DNA from: Eucommia ulmoides
Taxonomy: Eukaryota > Streptophyta > Magnoliopsida > Garryales > Eucommiaceae
DNA length: 64,000 bases
Assembly: GCA_016647705.1 (NCBI GenBank)
Contig: CM028332.1
Span: 28,401,300-28,465,299, forward strand
Reading direction: 5' to 3'
This document shows, one piece after another, positions 632-57,576 of this stretch (position 1 is the stretch's first letter; every line of letters begins with the position of its first letter). The translations under genes were made by a program, and so were the position numbers. Below the pieces are notes generated by a model. The model did no database searches. It had not been told where the DNA came from and saw only the letters and a list, made by a program, of their open reading frames with translations.

Positions 632-1486
632 GTAACTTAACTTAGCTTAGCCCCATCTATTTATGACGTCATTCTTTTCGACTAGTGATTGCACGTGCCC
701 ACCACATGTTTCACCCCCCCTAATTTGTCCACTGCCGCTTAAATTCGATGGATTGGCTCTTTTGGGCGTGGAGAGTCTAGAAACAAAATTTACTATGCTA
801 ATAGTGCCACTATCCCTATTAATTTTTTTAAAATTATAATTTCAACCAAATTATACTTTTAAAAAAAAAAAATATTATTAACTCATTATAGCAAAAAGTT
901 AATTTCTGATGTTATTCAAAAATAAAAATTAAAAAAATATGTATTTTTAAAGCGAGAGAATAAATTGATAATTATTTAAAATAAGATAAATTAATATAGT
1001 GTAGCTCAAATGGTAAGACCTATTTAAATTAAAGCAGTGGATGGACTTCAACAAGGTCAGTGATTTGAGCCTGCAAAAAAACACTTATTGGGTGGAACAA
1101 TTACGCACCTCGAACACGATTAGTCGCACATCTTGTGTGAGTGTGAAGACACTCGTAGATTAAAAAATAAAAAATAAATAATATTAGTATATTTCAACTA
1201 TAAATAAAGTGTTAATTCAAGAAGTGTTAATTTGATTGGAGAAGTGTCTGTTTTCCTTATCAATCAAAATTTGATTCTCCCGAAAGTTATTATAGGAATT
1301 AAATCTTTAATTTAATCCCAAATATACTACATCGATCGACATGGGAGAATGTATCTATAAAATCATCCGGGAAAGTGATGAATCAAAATATGCATAAATT
1401 GGCATGGGAAATTTTACTGTAAAATAGAAAAAATACAAAAAATAAAGTGTTACATATTTTTAATTAATTTGTGAAAAATGTTACAG
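632..1486 (+). other. NIA: Last intron of the nitrate reductase gene
   Basis: An 855-bp intron with a GTAACT donor at 632 and a TTACAG acceptor ending at 1486. It is AT-rich with several A and T runs and contains a SINE-like remnant near 989-1180 (listed separately). No coding exon is seen inside it. The joined flanking exons keep the nitrate reductase frame (NLM, then GMMNN), which fixes both boundaries. Confidence 0.9.
989..1180 (+). mobile_element. tRNA-derived SINE remnant in NIA intron
   Basis: About 190 bp aligning end to end with a second copy at 7028-7214. It has a Pol III A-box-like motif TAGCTCAAATGG at 1002-1013 and a B-box-like GATTTGAGCCT at 1062-1072, about 50 bp downstream, then a tRNA-unrelated body and an A-rich tail (about 1155-1180). 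Shared segments between the copies include GGTAAGACC/AGTAAGACC after the A box and the ACACT-GT-G stretch before the tail. The target duplication is not clear, so the ends are approximate. The two copies differ at many sites, which suggests old insertions. It lies in the same orientation as NIA. Confidence 0.7.
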
Positions 1487-2818
1487 GGGATGATGAACAA
1501 TTGTTGGTTCCGAGTGAAAACCAACGTCTGTAAACCTCACAAGGGTGAAATTGGAATTGTATTTGAACATCCGACTCGGCCGGGGAATCAGCCCGGCGGC
1601 TGGATGGCGAAGGAGCGCCAGCTCGGGCAAAGCTCCGACTCCATCCCCACCCTGAAGAAGAGTGTTTCCTCCCCCTTTATGAACACTTCCTCCAAAGTCT
1701 ACTCCATCTCCGACGTCAAAAAGCATAACTCCGCCGACTCTGCATGGATCATTGTCCACGGTCATGTCTACGACTGTACCCGCTTCCTGAAGGATCATCC
1801 CGGCGGTGCCGACAGTATTCTGATCAACACCGGTACTGATTGTACGGAGGAGTTCGAAGCTATTCACTCCGACAAGGCGAGGAAGCTTTTGGAGGATTAC
1901 CGGATCGGAGAGCTTCTCACGACCGGCTATGGTTCAGATTCGTCGGCTTCATCCCCTAATAACTCCGTCCACGGTGCTTCCAACACCACCTATTTGGCAC
2001 CGATTAAGGAAATTGTTCCGGTGAGGAATGTGGCTCTGATCCCACGTGAGAAAATCCCTTGCCGGCTGGTTTCGACGACGGCGCTTTCCCACGATGTCCG
2101 GCGGTTCCGTTTTGCTCTTCCGTCGGAGGATCAGGTCCTGGGACTTCCCCTGGGAAAGCACATTTTCCTCTGCGCCACCATCGACGGAAAACTCTGCATG
2201 AGGGCCTACACGCCGACGAGCTCCGTCGACGAAGTTGGGTACTTCGAACTCGTCGTGAAAATTTACTACAAAAATGTGCACCCCAGGTTTCCGAACGGCG
2301 GTGTAATGTCGCAGTACCTCGATTCCCTGTCTGTCGGGGCGGTGCTCAATGTGAAGGGACCGTTGGGCCACATAGAGTACGCCGGAAGGGGCAATTTCGT
2401 CGTTCACGGCAAACCCAAGTTTGCCAAGAAATTAGCCATGATGGCCGGAGGAACCGGAATTACCCCGGTTTACCAGATAGTTCAAGCGATACTGAAGGAT
2501 CCGGAGGACGAAACAGAAGTTTTCGTGATTTATGCAAACCGAACGGAGGAAGATATTCTGCTCAGGGAGGAGCTTGACGAGTGGTCGGAAAAGTATTCCG
2601 ACAGGGTGAAGGTATGGTACGTGGTGGAATCGGCGAAAGAAGGGTGGGGCTACAGCATTGGGTTTATTACGGAGGGTGTCATGAGGGAACATTTGCCGGC
2701 GGCCGGAGATGACGTTCTGGCCCTGGCGTGTGGGCCGCCGCCGATGATACAATTCGCCGCCACTCCAAACTTGGAGAAGATGGGGTACGATGTTAAGGAT
2801 TCTTTGTTGGTGTTTTGA
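1487..2818 (+). CDS. NIA: Nitrate reductase [NADH], last exon: hinge 1, cytochrome b5, FAD and NADH domains
   Basis: The 443 codons of the last exon form the C-terminal half of plant nitrate reductase. In exon residues: 1-45 finish the Mo-domain dimerisation region ([10 protein letters not shown]). Residues 46-70 are hinge 1, with LKKSVSSPF at 57-64; Ser61 lies in the position that is phosphorylated and bound by 14-3-3 proteins in spinach-type enzymes. Residues 70-145 are the cytochrome b5 domain with haem ligands His104 (in DHPGG) and His127. Residues 175-300 are the FAD domain, with RAYTPTS at 239-245. Residues 310-443 are the NADH domain, with GGTGITP at 321-327 and the ACGPPPM motif at 414-420 holding the active cysteine 415. 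It ends SLLVF and TGA, the usual plant C-terminus. It is a complete, undamaged frame, more GC-rich than its surroundings. The product acts as a cytosolic homodimer, with electrons flowing from NADH through FAD and haem to Mo. Confidence 0.98.
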
Positions 2819-5814: not shown

Positions 5815-6145
5815 TAAACAAATTTGTGTTTGGATCATCAAAATCACTATTGTATCACAGTCTATTGTTAGTTTTCTCATTAAAAAAATAATTTAAAATT
5901 CCTAAAAATGTAGAGTCATGAATTAATTATTATTCCAACTTACCTTTCCATTTGTATGCAAATCAATCATTTATTGTCAATTCAAAGATACGAAAGACAT
6001 ATAGTTTACAATTGTGTTTAATTCAAACATTTTTTTCATGTCTATTGTTTTTTCGTAATTCGATTGAACAATAACGTACGCTTTGTATTGAATTCAACAT
6101 ATCCTAAATTTACAAAATGTACATTAATGGATGTTTTCTGAAGTT
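5815..6145 (-). repeat. Dispersed repeat family, minus-strand member
   Basis: Read on the minus strand, this segment follows in order the landmarks of the tandem repeat at 55960-56700: CATCCATT, TTTAGGATNTGTTGAATTCAA, AATTAAAC-ACAATT, ATACAAATG-AAA-GTAAGTT, TTCATGACT, and AACTAACAATAGACTGTGAT. Spacing between landmarks is similar in both places, and the order runs across a unit boundary as it does in the tandem copies. It is non-coding and diverged. Confidence 0.6.
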
Positions 6146-7027
6146 ATATTTCTATATAAATAGGAATTGAATATAACATAATGTTTTTATAAACACCAAC
6201 ATTAATCATGCATGTATAGCTGATAATGTTCAAATATTAAATTCAACATCTACCACAATAGTTAATTTTTAAATAAAAATCAGTATCACTTTGACTTGTG
6301 AATTTAAAAATATACGGAAAAGTATGACTTACATTTGAATAAAAATATTTTAGCATATTGTCTTAAAATTTAAGAGATCATAAATGAAAATGATGATATG
6401 AATTTAACTTGATATGAAAAGATTTCATTATATCTGTTATTCCGAAATTTTAGTGAGTATTATCATCAGTGAAATTAGGTTAAATTTTAAAAAAATATAT
6501 ATATACATATTTTTATGGTGATTAATTGGTAGATCTACTAAAAATAATTAGATAAATCAGTATTTTTACTAGACCCAAATGATTATTTTGTCAAACTAAA
6601 AACCTTTTCATCTAATATACACACCCTATTAAATACTGGATGGTTCCTTCTCGAAATATCTAAGTTGTTTGGATTTTTAATGCTTAGGTCACCATGAGCA
6701 TTGTACGATTTTGGATCCTTTTGTTTGACACTTCAAAGACTTGAAGGGACACTTATTCATAGCACCCCCATCCAAAAACAATGGGAGTGTCAAAATAATA
6801 AATATTTTATTTTAAAAAAATTATTATACTTTGAAGTCTTAAAGTTCAAATTCAAATAATGTTGCACTCTAGATTTTAAAATGTTGCCTCACATTGTCCC
6901 ATTAAATTTGTAATATGTGTCAAAAAGACAAGATTAAGCAGCCTAAAATTTCACTAAAATATAATTAGGGCCAATTTTTTGATAATATTTTTGTGAGATA
7001 TTGGCAATTATTATTAAGGTTTTGATC

Positions 7028-10675: not shown

Positions 10676-11038
10676 TTTCGAGTCTCTCCTGTCGTCGCTG
10701 TCGATCGATCTCTACTCTTCCTGTGACAGATTTCAGCCATTTCAGGTATATTATTTGCATATATTGTTTACGAATATTGTTTATGAATATACTGTTGGTC
10801 AAACTCTGCTGTTGGTTGGTTTACGAATATATTTTTTCATATATTGTTTGTAATTGCGTTCATTCAATGTTGATTCTTAGCATTTGTAATTACTGTTTCT
10901 GTTTTTTTGTAGAGATTTGTTTACTATTTTTTTGCAGTGATTTGTTTACCTTTTTTTGCAGTGATTTATGTTTCTGTTAGCACATATGGCATTTTGTCTT
11001 ACCATATTATTGTTTCTGTTATTTACAATGATTTGACA

Positions 11039-13119
11039 ATGGCTAGTGCTTCTTCTACAATCAATTTGGATGGTGACAACGATCAGACACCGGTGACCAA
11101 AAAAATTAAAACAACATCTAAAGTTTGGGATTGGTTTACAAAGTTACCATCGGATTCGAATGATCAGTTAAAAGCCAAATGCGAACATTGCTTTAAGGTA
11201 CTTTCTGCTAAAAGTACTAGTAGTACTTCACATTTGAGACATCACATGAATAAATACTGTATTAAAAGATTGAATCATGATATTAGGAATTTTACAATTC
11301 AAAGTAAATCAAAATCTGATGGAACTAAGACTTTAAGAAATTATAAATATGATCCTGCTGAACTTCGTAAAGAGATTGCAAAGATGATTGTGGTGGATGA
11401 GCGTCCGTTTAGAGCAGTTAAAGCTATAGGTTTTAGAAGTGTAATGTCTAAAGCCCGTCCTGAATTTAGGATGATGAGTAGATCTACAATTAAGAGAGAT
11501 ATTATGGCCATGTACACTATAGAAAGAGAAAAGATGCTTCTAGAGTTAAGTGCATGTCTGGGTAGCATTTATTTGACGTCTGATACATGGTTATCTCTTA
11601 CTGATGATCATTATATTTGTGTGACTGCTCATTTTATTGATAATCAATGAAAATTGCATAAAAGGATCATATGTTTTAAGCTTATACCTCATCCTTATGA
11701 TACTTTGTCAATTGAGGATGAGTTGACCTCGTGTTTGTCCCGATGGAATATTGAGAATAAGGTTTTTAGCATTACTTTGGATAACTTGTCTACAAATGAT
11801 TGTGTGGCGAGTAGAATTCAAGCACGGCTTTCCTCTAAAAAGCTTCTTCCTTGTAATGGTGCATTTTTCCATGTACATTGTTGTGCACATATTCTTAATT
11901 TGATAGTACAAGCTGGTTTTAATGTAATAAGTGATATTATTGAAAAACTTAGACTTGGAGTCAAATATGTGAAACTTTCACCTATTAGGAGAAAGAAGTT
12001 TTTTGCTCTTGCTACAAGTTTAAAGATGGATACTAGGAAGAAATTGTGTCTTAATTGTCCGACAAGGTGAAATGCTATTTATCACATGCTTGAAGTTACT
12101 CTTCACTATAAAGATACATTTTTATATTTGGGTGACCGTGATAGAAATTTCAAGTATAATTTGTTGGAGGATAAATGGGAGCGAGTAAGTGTTTTGTGCA
12201 ACTTCTTGAAGGTGTTTTATGAAGTAACATGTACCTTTTCTGGAATGAAATATCCAACTTCAAATTTGTACTTTAAAGGTGTGTGGAGAGTTCACATGAA
12301 ATTGTTGGATGTTTTGAAAGGGCCGCCTAATTTTTTGTCCGACATGGTGCATGAAATGCATTTGAAGTTCAACAAATATTGGTCGGATTATAGTTTAATC
12401 TTGTCTTGCGGTGCAATTTTAGATCCAAGGTATAAGCTTAAATTTGTTGAATATTGTTATACCAAAATATATGGTGGAGAAGCAGATCAATACATAAACA
12501 CCACTATTTCCACCCTTTATTCGTTGTTTGGCGAGTACATGAAAAAATCGAGCTCTTCTACTAGTTGTGGGTCTTTTGGCATGTCAATGGGCGAGTCTAA
12601 TCTTGTGGAAAGAACGAGCGACGAATTTGAAGATTACGCAAGATTTGAAAGTAATAGGTCTCGCCAACAAGTTGAAAAATCTCAACTAGACTTGTACTTA
12701 GAAGAACCTAATCTTGATGTGAATAGCGAGATTGAAATCTTGGAATATTGGTGTTCTTCTTCATTGAGGTATCCCGATTTGGCAAGAATGGCTCGGGATA
12801 TTTTGACTATTCCTGTATCTTCTGTTGCTTCTGAGAGAGCTTTCAGTACAGGCCGTCGAGTCATTAGTCCTTATCGATGCTTGTTGAAGTCCAAAACCAT
12901 ACAAGCTTTAATTTGTTTGCAAGATTGGTTTCTTGCTTATGATTCAACAGGTAAACGTTACAATTATTATCGACATTTGTGAATTTTATTTATGCGTGAT
13001 TTTTTATTAAAGTTAAAGTATGATATTTTTAATTCTCAAATACAGGTAAATCAGGTGTTTTAGGACAACAACTAGATGATGTTTCAAGCTCTAGCGAAGA
13101 TGACGACGATGATTATTAA
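11039..13119 (+). pseudogene. hAT transposase (RICESLEEPER/Ac type) with two internal TGA codons
   Basis: One reading frame runs from ATG 11039 (MASASSTIN) to TAA 13117-13119, spliced at 12950|13046 over a 95-bp intron (CAG|GTAAAC to ATACAG). It spans 662 codons including the stop. Residues about 26-75 form a BED zinc finger (CEHC, then HLRHHMNKYC). The middle holds the RNase H-like core with LTSDTW and ITLDNLSTND, which supply presumptive catalytic aspartates. The C-terminus has the hAT dimerisation motif (LEYWCSSSLRYPDLA, then SSVASERAFSTGRRVI) and an acidic tail SSSSEDDDDD. TGA codons at 11648-11650 and 12068-12070 sit where relatives have Trp (in W-KLHKRI and CPTRWNA); both look like G-to-A changes. 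Inactive unless read through. The intron is supported by resumption of the tail after the acceptor. Confidence 0.88.
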
Positions 13120-48829: not shown

Positions 48830-49069
48830 TGACGTGTAGTGCATTAAGTCCATTATCGAGTTTGAGTTAGTCTAAAGTTCGGCCGGCGGCGAGTCCATAA
48901 ACTCCTCAGGGAGTCCGACAGCCGGCCCAAACAACGATCCATCCACTGTGCTGCTTAAGGATAAGGAGTTGGAGGGGGAGGCTAGTGACTCGAATCCTCT
49001 TCAGCTCTTCTCATCTTCTCTATCCATATTTCTTCAAACGGTTGAATCGGAAGTTTACAGATTGAGAAA

Positions 49070-49755
49070 ATGGCGCCGGCACTGGCAATGCCCGTCGCAC
49101 GGTCGCTATCTCTTATCTGCAACACCAGCACATTCGGAAATCGTAATTCAAATTATGTCTCTTTCGCTTCTCCATCCCGTCCCAAGGTAATACCTAATTT
49201 TTGTCTTTTGATGTTTCATCAAACATGGCGGAATGTGGTTATTCTGTTGTTTTTTCTTTGGTAGATTGGTCGTTTGTCCATCAGATGCGCTCGTATTGGA
49301 GGCGTGGAGATTCCCAACCATAAGCGGATCGAGTGCTCGCTGCAGTACATCCATGGCATCGGGCGTTCGAATTCTCGCCAAATCCTGGCCGACCTCAACA
49401 TGGAGAACAAAATCACCAAGAATCTCTCCGAAGAAGAGCTCATTGTTCTCCGTGGCGAAGTCTCCAAGTACTTGGTCGAAGGCGATCTCGTAATAATCCC
49501 TAATCTCTACTTCGCCTAGGGTTTATGAGATTTTACAGTGAATTGAATCCTTGATTACTGTTTTCAAATGTTTGGTGTGTTTTGCAGAGGAGATTCAATG
49601 GGCTTGCGATTAAGAGGTTGAAGGATATCAGGTGCTACAGAGGAATAAGGCATATCAAGGGTTTGCCCTGCAGAGGGCAGCGCACGAAGAACAATTGCAG
49701 AACTCTAAAGGGTAAACGGGTGGCCATCCCAGGGAAGAAGAAAACACCCCGTTGA
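49070..49755 (+). CDS. RPS13: 30S ribosomal protein S13, chloroplastic (three exons)
   Basis: Exons at 49070-49186, 49265-49489 and 49588-49755, all GT-AG and phase 0, give 169 residues, the usual length of the plant nuclear-encoded plastid S13. Residues 1 to about 46 are Ser/Ala-rich with few acids ([20 protein letters not shown]), as in a chloroplast transit peptide. The S13 core follows: [34 protein letters not shown] (helix-two-turn-helix contact), [40 protein letters not shown], then the conserved C-terminal [15 protein letters not shown] and a basic tail GKKKTPR. S13 sits in the head of the small subunit and touches 16S rRNA and P-site tRNA. A diverged copy lies 7.2 kb downstream on the same strand. 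The start is set by conservation of the leader. No damage is seen. Confidence 0.97.
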
Positions 49756-55663: not shown

Positions 55664-56795
55664 CAAAGTCTACCTAACACTATAAGAACCATATGTATTT
55701 TAAAAAAATAATAAAAAATAACAGTTTCGTGAGAGATCCCAATTTTTGTCTAAATTCTATATTTTCAATTTACAGGACTTTAATGTCCTTCCGAATGCAA
55801 TGTTTCCTATAATATTGGCTTCATCTGTAAGTTTTGACGTATGCCCACATTTTTTTTTTTTTTTTTTAAAGGAAATAGTTAAAAGATCAAATGATATGAA
55901 AAGAACAGGCAAAATAAAAGCTGTATCTTACAGTTAAAAAAGAATGATATACATATTTTAGAAGGTCTAAAGAAAATATCCATTTATATATTTTTCGAAC
56001 ATCATCTTGATTTTTTTGCTGTGTTGAATTCAATCTATTAAAAATTTAAATGCAAAATTCTAACATGAAAAAATTAACAATAAATTGTGGTTGGATGATT
56101 GTTTTTATGATTAAACATAGATTTGAATTCGTCATGAACGAAGATTTAGAACGATGTCCATTTATATATATTTGGTTGCAAAATTTAGGATTTGTTGAAT
56201 TCAACATGGTATTGAATTTAACATGTCACGGTTTAATCTAATTATGAAAAAAAGATTAAACTACAATTATAACCTATGATTATTTTCATATTTTTTTATT
56301 CAAAAAAAAAAGATGTAGTTTGAATACAAATGAAAAGATAAGTTCATGACTTCATATTTTGAGGGATTTTAAAAGCAAAATTTCAACGCGAGAAATCTAA
56401 CAATAGACCGTGATTCAATAATTAATTCAAACATAGATTTAGATTCCCCATAAATGAAAGTTCAAAACAACATCCATTTAAATAAATTTTGCTGTCAAAT
56501 CTAGATTTTGTTGAATTCAAAAATCATATGTAACCATTCAATTTAATTATAAAAAACATATAAAAGTAGAAAATAAAGAATTAAAATACAATTATGACCT
56601 ATGATTCGTTTTATATTTTTTAATTGGAAAATAAAGGTTTAATTTGAATACAAATGAGAATATTGATTCACGACGTCTTTTGAGAATAATGTGTAAATTT
56701 ATAAAATAAAGGGATTAAAACGAAATAAGACGAAACCAAAGTATAAATAAGGGCAACGCCGGAAAAGCTCTCCGATGCGGTGACGACATTGACAT
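55664..56795. other. AT-rich DNA upstream of the RPS13 paralog
   Basis: About 1.1 kb without genes, between the copia fossil and the promoter of the S13 paralog. Most of it (55960-56700) is the tandem repeat listed separately. The last 100 bases are GC-richer and include the segment shared with the RPS13 promoter. Confidence 0.6.
55960..56700 (+). repeat. Diverged tandem repeat, about 320-bp units
   Basis: Two full units and part of a third follow each other. Repeated landmarks include TTGTTGAATTCAA (about 56023, 56193, 56510), TACAATTATNACCTATGATT (56262 and 56587), TTTGAATACAAATGA (about 56317 and 56652) and CTAACAATAGACCGTGATT (56398) matching TTAACAATAAATTGTGGTT (56073). The unit is non-coding. 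A diverged member lies on the minus strand at 5815-6145. Confidence 0.7.
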
Positions 56796-56920
56796 TGGGC
56801 CAACACGAGTCCAGAAACTTCTAAAGAGTCCGATAGCAAGCCAGCGCAGGCACGAACCACACGGCTCCGTCAAACCTCATTGCGAAGACCCTCATTGTTG
56901 GTCCTCTTCTCGGCTTCGAC
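56796..56920 (+). promoter_or_regulatory. Upstream region of RPS13 paralog, duplicated from RPS13
   Basis: TGGGCC at 56796-56801 is a site II-type motif. The segment from about 56807 (GAGTCCAGAAACTTCT, then GAGTCCGATAGC-AGCC) aligns with 48891-48925 upstream of RPS13 (GAGTCCATAAACTCCT, then GAGTCCGACAGCCGGCC). So the duplication took in promoter-proximal DNA as well as the coding part. Confidence 0.6.
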
Positions 56921-57576
56921 ATGGCTCTCTCCCTCCCTCTCTCCAAATTCGCTCGGCGGGTTCAATCGAAATGGAGTCTCCATCTAGAAAAAGTGGCGCC
57001 GGCGCCGCTCGCTGCTGCACCACCGTCGCTGTCTCTGATCCGCAACATAACTACAATCACAGATCGCGTTCGTGTGGGGGGCGCCGGTATTCCAATCAAC
57101 AAGCGCCTCGAGTTCTCTCTGCAGTACATTCAGGGCATCGGCCGTTCGACCGCTCGCCAAATTCTGGCGAATCTAAGCAGGGAAAACAAAGTCACCAGGG
57201 ATCTCTCCCAAGAAGAGCTCATATCTCTGCGCGATGAAGTCTCCAAGTACTTGACAGAAGGCGATCTCGTAACAATCTCTCTCTCTCTCTCTCGTAATTA
57301 TTTTCTTATTCGAGCGAATTTTGAATTCGGCTTTTCGATTCTGCATTTTTAGATTGTTATTCTGCTTATAATGAACTGATAATTGTAATGGTTTTTGTGT
57401 ATCGAATTTTGAAATGGTGGCAGAGGAGGACCACATCGAATGAAATCAAGAGGCTGAAGGATATCGGGTGCTTCAGAGGAACACAGCACGCCAGCGAAGC
57501 CAACAACGAACAATTGCCGGACTTTAAATCAGGAAAGAAGAAGGAGAAGGAGAAGAAGAAGAAGAAGAAGAATTAA
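56921..57576 (+). CDS. Diverged S13 paralog with new N- and C-termini (possible pseudogene)
   Basis: Two exons, 56921-57268 and 57424-57576 (GT-AG, phase 0), give 166 residues. Residues about 50-116 are a good S13 core (VRVGGAGIPINKRLEFSLQY, IQGIGRSTARQILANL, EVSKYLTEGDL), close to the gene at 49070. Three things differ. The codon matching the RPS13 start is GTG (56993, Val25), and translation must begin upstream at 56921, which gives a leader MALSLPLSKFARRVQSKWSL that is basic and free of acids, like a mitochondrial presequence. Intron 1 and its flanks are missing. After RRTTSNEIKRLKDIGCFRGT the C-terminus departs from S13, lacks [12 protein letters not shown], and ends in a Lys/Glu-rich tail. 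In some rosids a duplicated chloroplast S13 serves mitochondria, so that is one option. The damaged tail argues for a pseudogene. Confidence 0.6.

Follow-up and report, generated by a model that had tools for sequence, protein, structure and literature searches.

The 64,000-nucleotide window analysed here (Eucommia ulmoides, contig CM028332.1, positions 28,401,300 to 28,465,299) carries nucp rps13, the nuclear gene that encodes plastid ribosomal protein S13 (49070-49755; the parent), and, 7.8 kb downstream, an S13 duplicate (56921-57576; the copy). The copy arose by an old tandem duplication of the parent; it has lost the ancestral start codon and begins instead in former 5' flanking DNA, with a leader that resembles a mitochondrial presequence. 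The reading that we favour, and hold tentatively, is that this tandem duplicate moved towards mitochondrial targeting and that its ribosomal function is now doubtful. The duplication, the start shift, the deletions, the open frame and the intact splice borders can all be seen directly when the two genes, whose features are listed below, are aligned.

49070..49186, + strand: nucp rps13 exon 1, transit peptide (gene-model alignment; residues 1-168 of the protein align with plastid uS13c, 5mmj)
49265..49489, + strand: nucp rps13 exon 2 (GT-AG borders)
49588..49755, + strand: nucp rps13 exon 3 with stop (protein above the uS13_bact cut-off, 133.0 vs 130.45)
56795..56920, + strand: copy, what remains of the ancestral 5' flank, including a single TGGGCC (site II-like) at 56796 (aligns with 48878 onward; motif scan)
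56921..56992, + strand: copy, new 24-codon leader MALSLPLSKFARRVQSKWSLHLEK (translation of the open reading frame; flank alignment)
56993..56995, + strand: copy, former start codon, now GTG (alignment with the parent)
56921..57268, + strand: copy exon 1, equivalent to the first two ancestral exons with intron 1 absent; the mature S13 block begins near 57068 (PF00416, 64.7 bits)
57269..57423, + strand: copy intron, GT-AG borders kept at the position of the parent's intron 2 (alignment)
57424..57576, + strand: copy last exon, which lacks 17 bases and then has a stretch in a shifted frame, a frame-restoring second indel, a lysine-rich tail and the stop (alignments)

Results

The start codon of the copy is derived

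When the two genes were aligned, the parent ATG (49070-49072) lay opposite a GTG in the copy (56993-56995), and an in-frame ATG at 56921-56923, 72 bases upstream of that GTG, was found to add 24 residues. Both observations agree with a preliminary description of the locus, which had also held that the leader DNA derives from the parent's 5' flank. This too was borne out: local alignment of 48840-49069 with 56770-56992 scored 64, against 24.5 ± 4.3 and a maximum of 48 in 500 shuffles, and the leader stretch alone scored 33, against 16.9 ± 3.4 and a maximum of 29. A chance open reading frame with an unrelated leader was rejected, since the flanks of parent and copy are homologous. The parent protein has 169 residues, and its best solved relative, plastid uS13c (5mmj), aligns from residue 1 (over residues 1-168), which supports the ATG at 49070 as the ancestral start. 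Because the parent's 24 codons ahead of its ATG, read in the same frame, contain a TGA, the extended N-terminus is derived in the copy; the start shift is thus both real and derived. The closest in-frame stop above the new ATG ends at 56836. Positions -3 and +4 of the new ATG are both G, and the sole other ATG between 56770 and this codon lies at 56775.

Intron 1 is also missing from the copy, as is the second half of the transit peptide; a single alignment gap covers both. A retrocopy origin was considered and rejected, because the borders of the second intron and the flanks have been retained.

The leader is of mitochondrial type

The predicted leader appears basic, amphipathic and nearly acid-free, that is, of mitochondrial type. 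It contains K9, R12, R13 and K17 and has no acidic residue before E23, exactly as first described. Shuffling the leader 5000 times reproduced its net charge of at least +4, its lack of acid in the first 22 residues and an equal or higher hydrophobic moment jointly in 0.9% of cases; among 588 ATG frames from the window the figure was 1.0%. Outside the new 24 residues, the best local match of the copy to the leader of Arabidopsis mitochondrial S13 was SLSLIRNIT, which resembles SQSLLRNVT of that presequence (P 0.004 in 2000 shuffles; 0.15 for the corresponding stretch of the parent).

Further similarity to mitochondrial S13 was seen among residues private to the copy, as judged against the parent, 5mmj, 4v61 and 28jw. 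Four of these 20 residues (A7, L15, R45 and E75) are those of mitochondrial S13 (two chains), where 1.3-1.7 would be expected (P 0.032 for random sites, 0.065 for fixed sites); the equivalent counts were 2/15 for 5mmj, 1/10 for the parent and 0/10 for 4v61. The best tree (8 rows, 88 columns; support 33/0) placed the copy with mitochondrial S13. Taken together, these features suggest that the product of the copy may be imported into mitochondria.

The coding block shows relaxed constraint

Over an alignable block of 89 codons, parent and copy share 59 of 89 residues. Nonsynonymous (Ka) and synonymous (Ks) divergence were estimated at 0.21 and 0.61 (NG86), 0.21 and 0.62 (maximum likelihood, ML), 0.21 and 0.46 (LWL85) and 0.23 and 0.46 (YN00). 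The resulting Ka/Ks ratios of 0.34 (NG86), 0.33 (ML), 0.45 (LWL85) and 0.51 (YN00) are pairwise, unpolarised values for parent and copy. An NG86 bootstrap over 88 codons gave a Ks of 0.39-1.01 and a Ka/Ks of 0.18-0.55 (median 0.32). A scan of the viral contig collection found no plant relatives, and among genome contigs the best 80 of 98 relatives were all bacterial by title; these loci did not enter the later analysis, so that Ks could not be polarised with plant DNA. The 29 residue differences in 88 comprised 20 private to the copy, three assigned to the parent and six without an assignment.

Neutral drift was then simulated with substitutions only, ignoring indels. At 0.30 changes per site, a mean of 40.6 residue changes was obtained, with a probability of 0.0095 for 29 or fewer and of 0.035 for a frame that stays open. 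As far as the sequence comparison goes, these data show a coding block under relaxed constraint, and it is likely that constraint acted for part of the copy's history. Neutral decay throughout is disfavoured, although it would be compatible with the data if the copy's branch were short.

Indels have rewritten the C-terminus

The copy retains an S13/S18 domain (PF00416, 64.7 bits against a cut-off of 31). In its last exon, 17 bases are gone, including most of the IKGLPCRG codons; they appear as one gap or, in a second alignment, as gaps of 11 and 6. After the missing bases, some 30-40 bases are read in another frame, until a second indel, placed differently by the alignments (2 bases inserted vs 19 missing), restores the original frame as SGKKK. 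A splice variant that would rescue the C-terminus was rejected, as the bases of the signature are missing in the exon alignments. At 57532-57573, a GAA/AAG repeat encodes the lysine-rich C-terminus of the copy, and this tail is possibly variable in length.

The locus lies among mobile-element fragments

The window is plant nuclear DNA with many mobile-element fragments. A Pfam scan was made of 28 of its frames, a subset of the listed open reading frames; 11 of these 28 had matches above the curated cut-off, namely nitrate reductase and ten transposase, retroelement or BED-finger frames, and 17 were without a match. The nitrate reductase gene is as follows.

1475..2818, + strand: nitrate reductase gene, 3' part, with cytochrome b5, FAD and NAD domains (Pfam)

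No further host gene was seen between nitrate reductase and S13 in the 28 frames, a scan that short or multi-exon genes could escape, and scans for tRNA and Rfam families across the window gave no matches. A hAT-type transposase remnant at 10913-12982 (BED zinc finger, RNase-H-like and dimerisation domains) is interrupted by in-frame stops.

TGGGCY-type sites mark the promoters of organelle ribosomal protein genes. The parent has three such sites (on either strand) within 300 bases of its ATG, where the window average is 0.16 per 300 bases, and the copy has one TGGGCC at 56796. Upstream of the copy, a dispersed repeat some 320 bases long forms tandem units at 56045-56363 and 56368-56684; the same repeat is found inverted at 5848-6151 on the other strand, at about 69-71% identity. 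The tandem pair ends about 110 bases before the start of the copy's homologous flank.

Discussion

A possible history of the copy

In the history that we propose, tandem duplication of the nuclear gene for plastid S13 would have yielded the copy, and a later deletion would have taken out the second half of the transit peptide together with intron 1. A change of the ancestral ATG to GTG would have followed, and the ATG in the former 5' flank would have taken over, giving a mitochondrial-type N-terminus. For a good part of its history the copy would have encoded an S13-like protein under relaxed selection, with a product most likely sent to mitochondria, until indels in the last exon removed the C-terminal signature. 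The order of these steps, like mitochondrial import and the present function of the gene, is something we infer from the alignments. Retargeting is plausible, and the gene family itself offers a direct precedent.

Several observations weigh against this reading. The C-terminal signature GLPxRGQRTxxNxRT (GLPCRGQRT) is absent from the copy, being partly deleted and partly frame-shifted; the PF00416 match covers profile positions 1-112 of 128; and with the uS13_bact equivalog profile (TIGR03631) the copy scores 81.9 bits, the parent 133.0, relative to a curated cut-off of 130.45. By codon position the differences number 16, 20 and 27, so that third positions are only weakly in excess (p 0.23), and the residue counts are compatible with a neutral branch of 0.15-0.20 (probability of 26 or fewer changes 0.74-0.21; of an open frame 0.14-0.07). 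The support for the best tree was 33/0, and a clade of copy and parent was not rejected (approximately unbiased (AU) test, p 0.198). The leader features, moreover, were picked after the finding had been read, and the repeat at 56045-56684 lies so close upstream that the old promoter may have been lost in part.

The preliminary description had presented the locus as a retargeting event caught in the sequence. The loss of the start, its replacement by an upstream ATG and the derivation of a presequence-like leader from the former 5' flank all stand; the C-terminal signature has been lost. Decay of the locus, which the same description had set against retargeting, is seen in part, in the missing signature and in a score below the uS13 cut-off. 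The present allele probably encodes a poor or dead ribosomal protein, and because the C-terminus is lost, a working mitoribosomal S13 from the copy today is unlikely.

Possible alternatives: decay without retargeting, or an ortholog of numit

A close rival, itself quite possible, is that the copy never underwent retargeting and is a tandem duplicate in decay. For a while it would have served as a redundant plastid S13, a period that would explain the constraint, and it would then have lost its start, its transit peptide and its C-terminus, with both the upstream ATG and the basic leader arising by accident in a pyrimidine-rich 5' flank. The destroyed signature and low profile score, the loss of the ancestral start and of half the transit peptide, the repeat near the promoter, the weak third-position excess and the fit of the residue counts to a short neutral branch are all consistent with such decay. 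Against this, the copy keeps a 166-codon open frame and both splice borders (P 0.069-0.035 for neutral branches of 0.20-0.30, with substitutions only), its last-exon indels jointly restore the frame, and its leader features occur in only about 1% of random frames.

Possible too, if slightly more doubtful, is that the copy is the ortholog of the rosid numit rps13, kept at its birthplace beside the parent and subject to a later upstream start shift. For the rosid gene, the literature cites Adams et al. 2002 and Mollier et al. 2002. Consecutive Arabidopsis locus codes denote adjacent genes. As set out in PMC2258280, rosids have two nuclear S13 genes of plastid origin, of which nucp is imported into chloroplasts and numit into mitochondria; the latter evolves faster (mean pairwise Ka/Ks 0.28 vs 0.06 for nucp), is reported from rosids only and not from Vitis, and has a leader that does not align with that of nucp. 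In the accessible parts of three further papers, the mitochondrial Rps13 of Arabidopsis is a duplicate of the plastid gene (PMC13308715), uS13m is AT1G77750 (PMC6953067) and NIA1 is AT1G77760 (PMC6473903).

Orthology with numit would fit these consecutive codes, as nitrate reductase and both S13 genes lie in one window here. It would also fit the four residues A7, L15, R45 and E75 common to the copy and mitochondrial S13, the likeness of SLIRNIT to SLLRNVT, a transit peptide that in both has lost its middle part (by alignment) and the grouping in the best tree. However, linkage to nitrate reductase is expected for any local duplicate, the tree and AU values given above apply here as well, and mitochondrial S13 chains 6xyw and 9evs both retain the C-terminal signature. 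In addition, the displaced frame of the copy still reads Cys where both mitochondrial chains have Ala (NART), a change that the available text of PMC2258280 assigns to the numit ancestor; here the mapping of its site 110 to our column is inferred.

We consider it unlikely that the copy records a second, independent retargeting of S13 from plastid to mitochondrion, still in tandem, with a presequence made in place from the 5' flank and every step readable at one locus. Least probable is a product that is made but acts elsewhere, whether dual-targeted or cytosolic, or a basic, lysine-tailed protein that binds nucleic acids outside the ribosome: the open frame, the G at both -3 and +4 relative to the start and the basic tail in place of the signature would suit such a product, but the tail is a simple GAA/AAG repeat, open by composition, and expression is hypothetical.

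Comparison with known systems

A close likeness is to the rosid numit rps13, also a nuclear duplicate of the plastid S13 gene with the middle of its transit peptide missing, a mitochondrial-type N-terminus and relaxed constraint (the ratio of 0.28 in PMC2258280), and with a nitrate reductase neighbour in Arabidopsis as in this window. The two differ in that chains 6xyw and 9evs have a full C-terminus, whereas that of the copy is scrambled, and in that numit leaders, according to the same text, cannot be aligned to nucp, whereas the copy's leader aligns with the parent's 5' flank. From nucp rps13 (uS13c), its parent, with 59 of 89 residues identical, the copy differs by the lack of half of the transit peptide, of intron 1 and of the C-terminal signature.

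In the Arabidopsis duplicates PRX36 and PRX72, as reported in the available section of PMC4202327, the original start was likewise abolished, a new one was gained and localisation diverged; there, peroxidases, the cell wall and GFP (green fluorescent protein) assays are concerned, while the present case would concern organelle import and is known from sequence alone. In peroxiredoxin-5 of canids, by the account in the accessible part of PMC3759418, a change of the start from ATG to GTG also alters mitochondrial targeting, which was lost there and without duplication.

A tandem S13 arrangement was not described in the titles and abstract openings of the literature searched, and the name numit rps13 appeared in a single paper there; the available parts of PMC13128298 do not mention S13, and those of PMC4045975 contain nothing on plastid-derived S13. 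The idea is not new in kind, as a plastid S13 duplicate serving mitochondria is known in rosids (PMC2258280) and the replacement of an abolished start by a new one is known for PRX36/PRX72 (PMC4202327), on the evidence of the sections of those papers cited above. Rather than an event of a new kind, the locus shows a variant of a known one, whose history can be read unusually well.

Implications

The lost C-terminus of the copy is a warning that an intact-looking leader is no proof of a working gene. The origin of an organelle address in duplicated genes is usually blurred by age; here, because the alignment of parent and copy still extends through the leader, the source of a possible presequence remains visible. 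Since the same neighbourhood is found in Arabidopsis and in this window, comparison of the two suggests that the linkage of nitrate reductase and S13 may be old and that numit may have arisen as a local copy.
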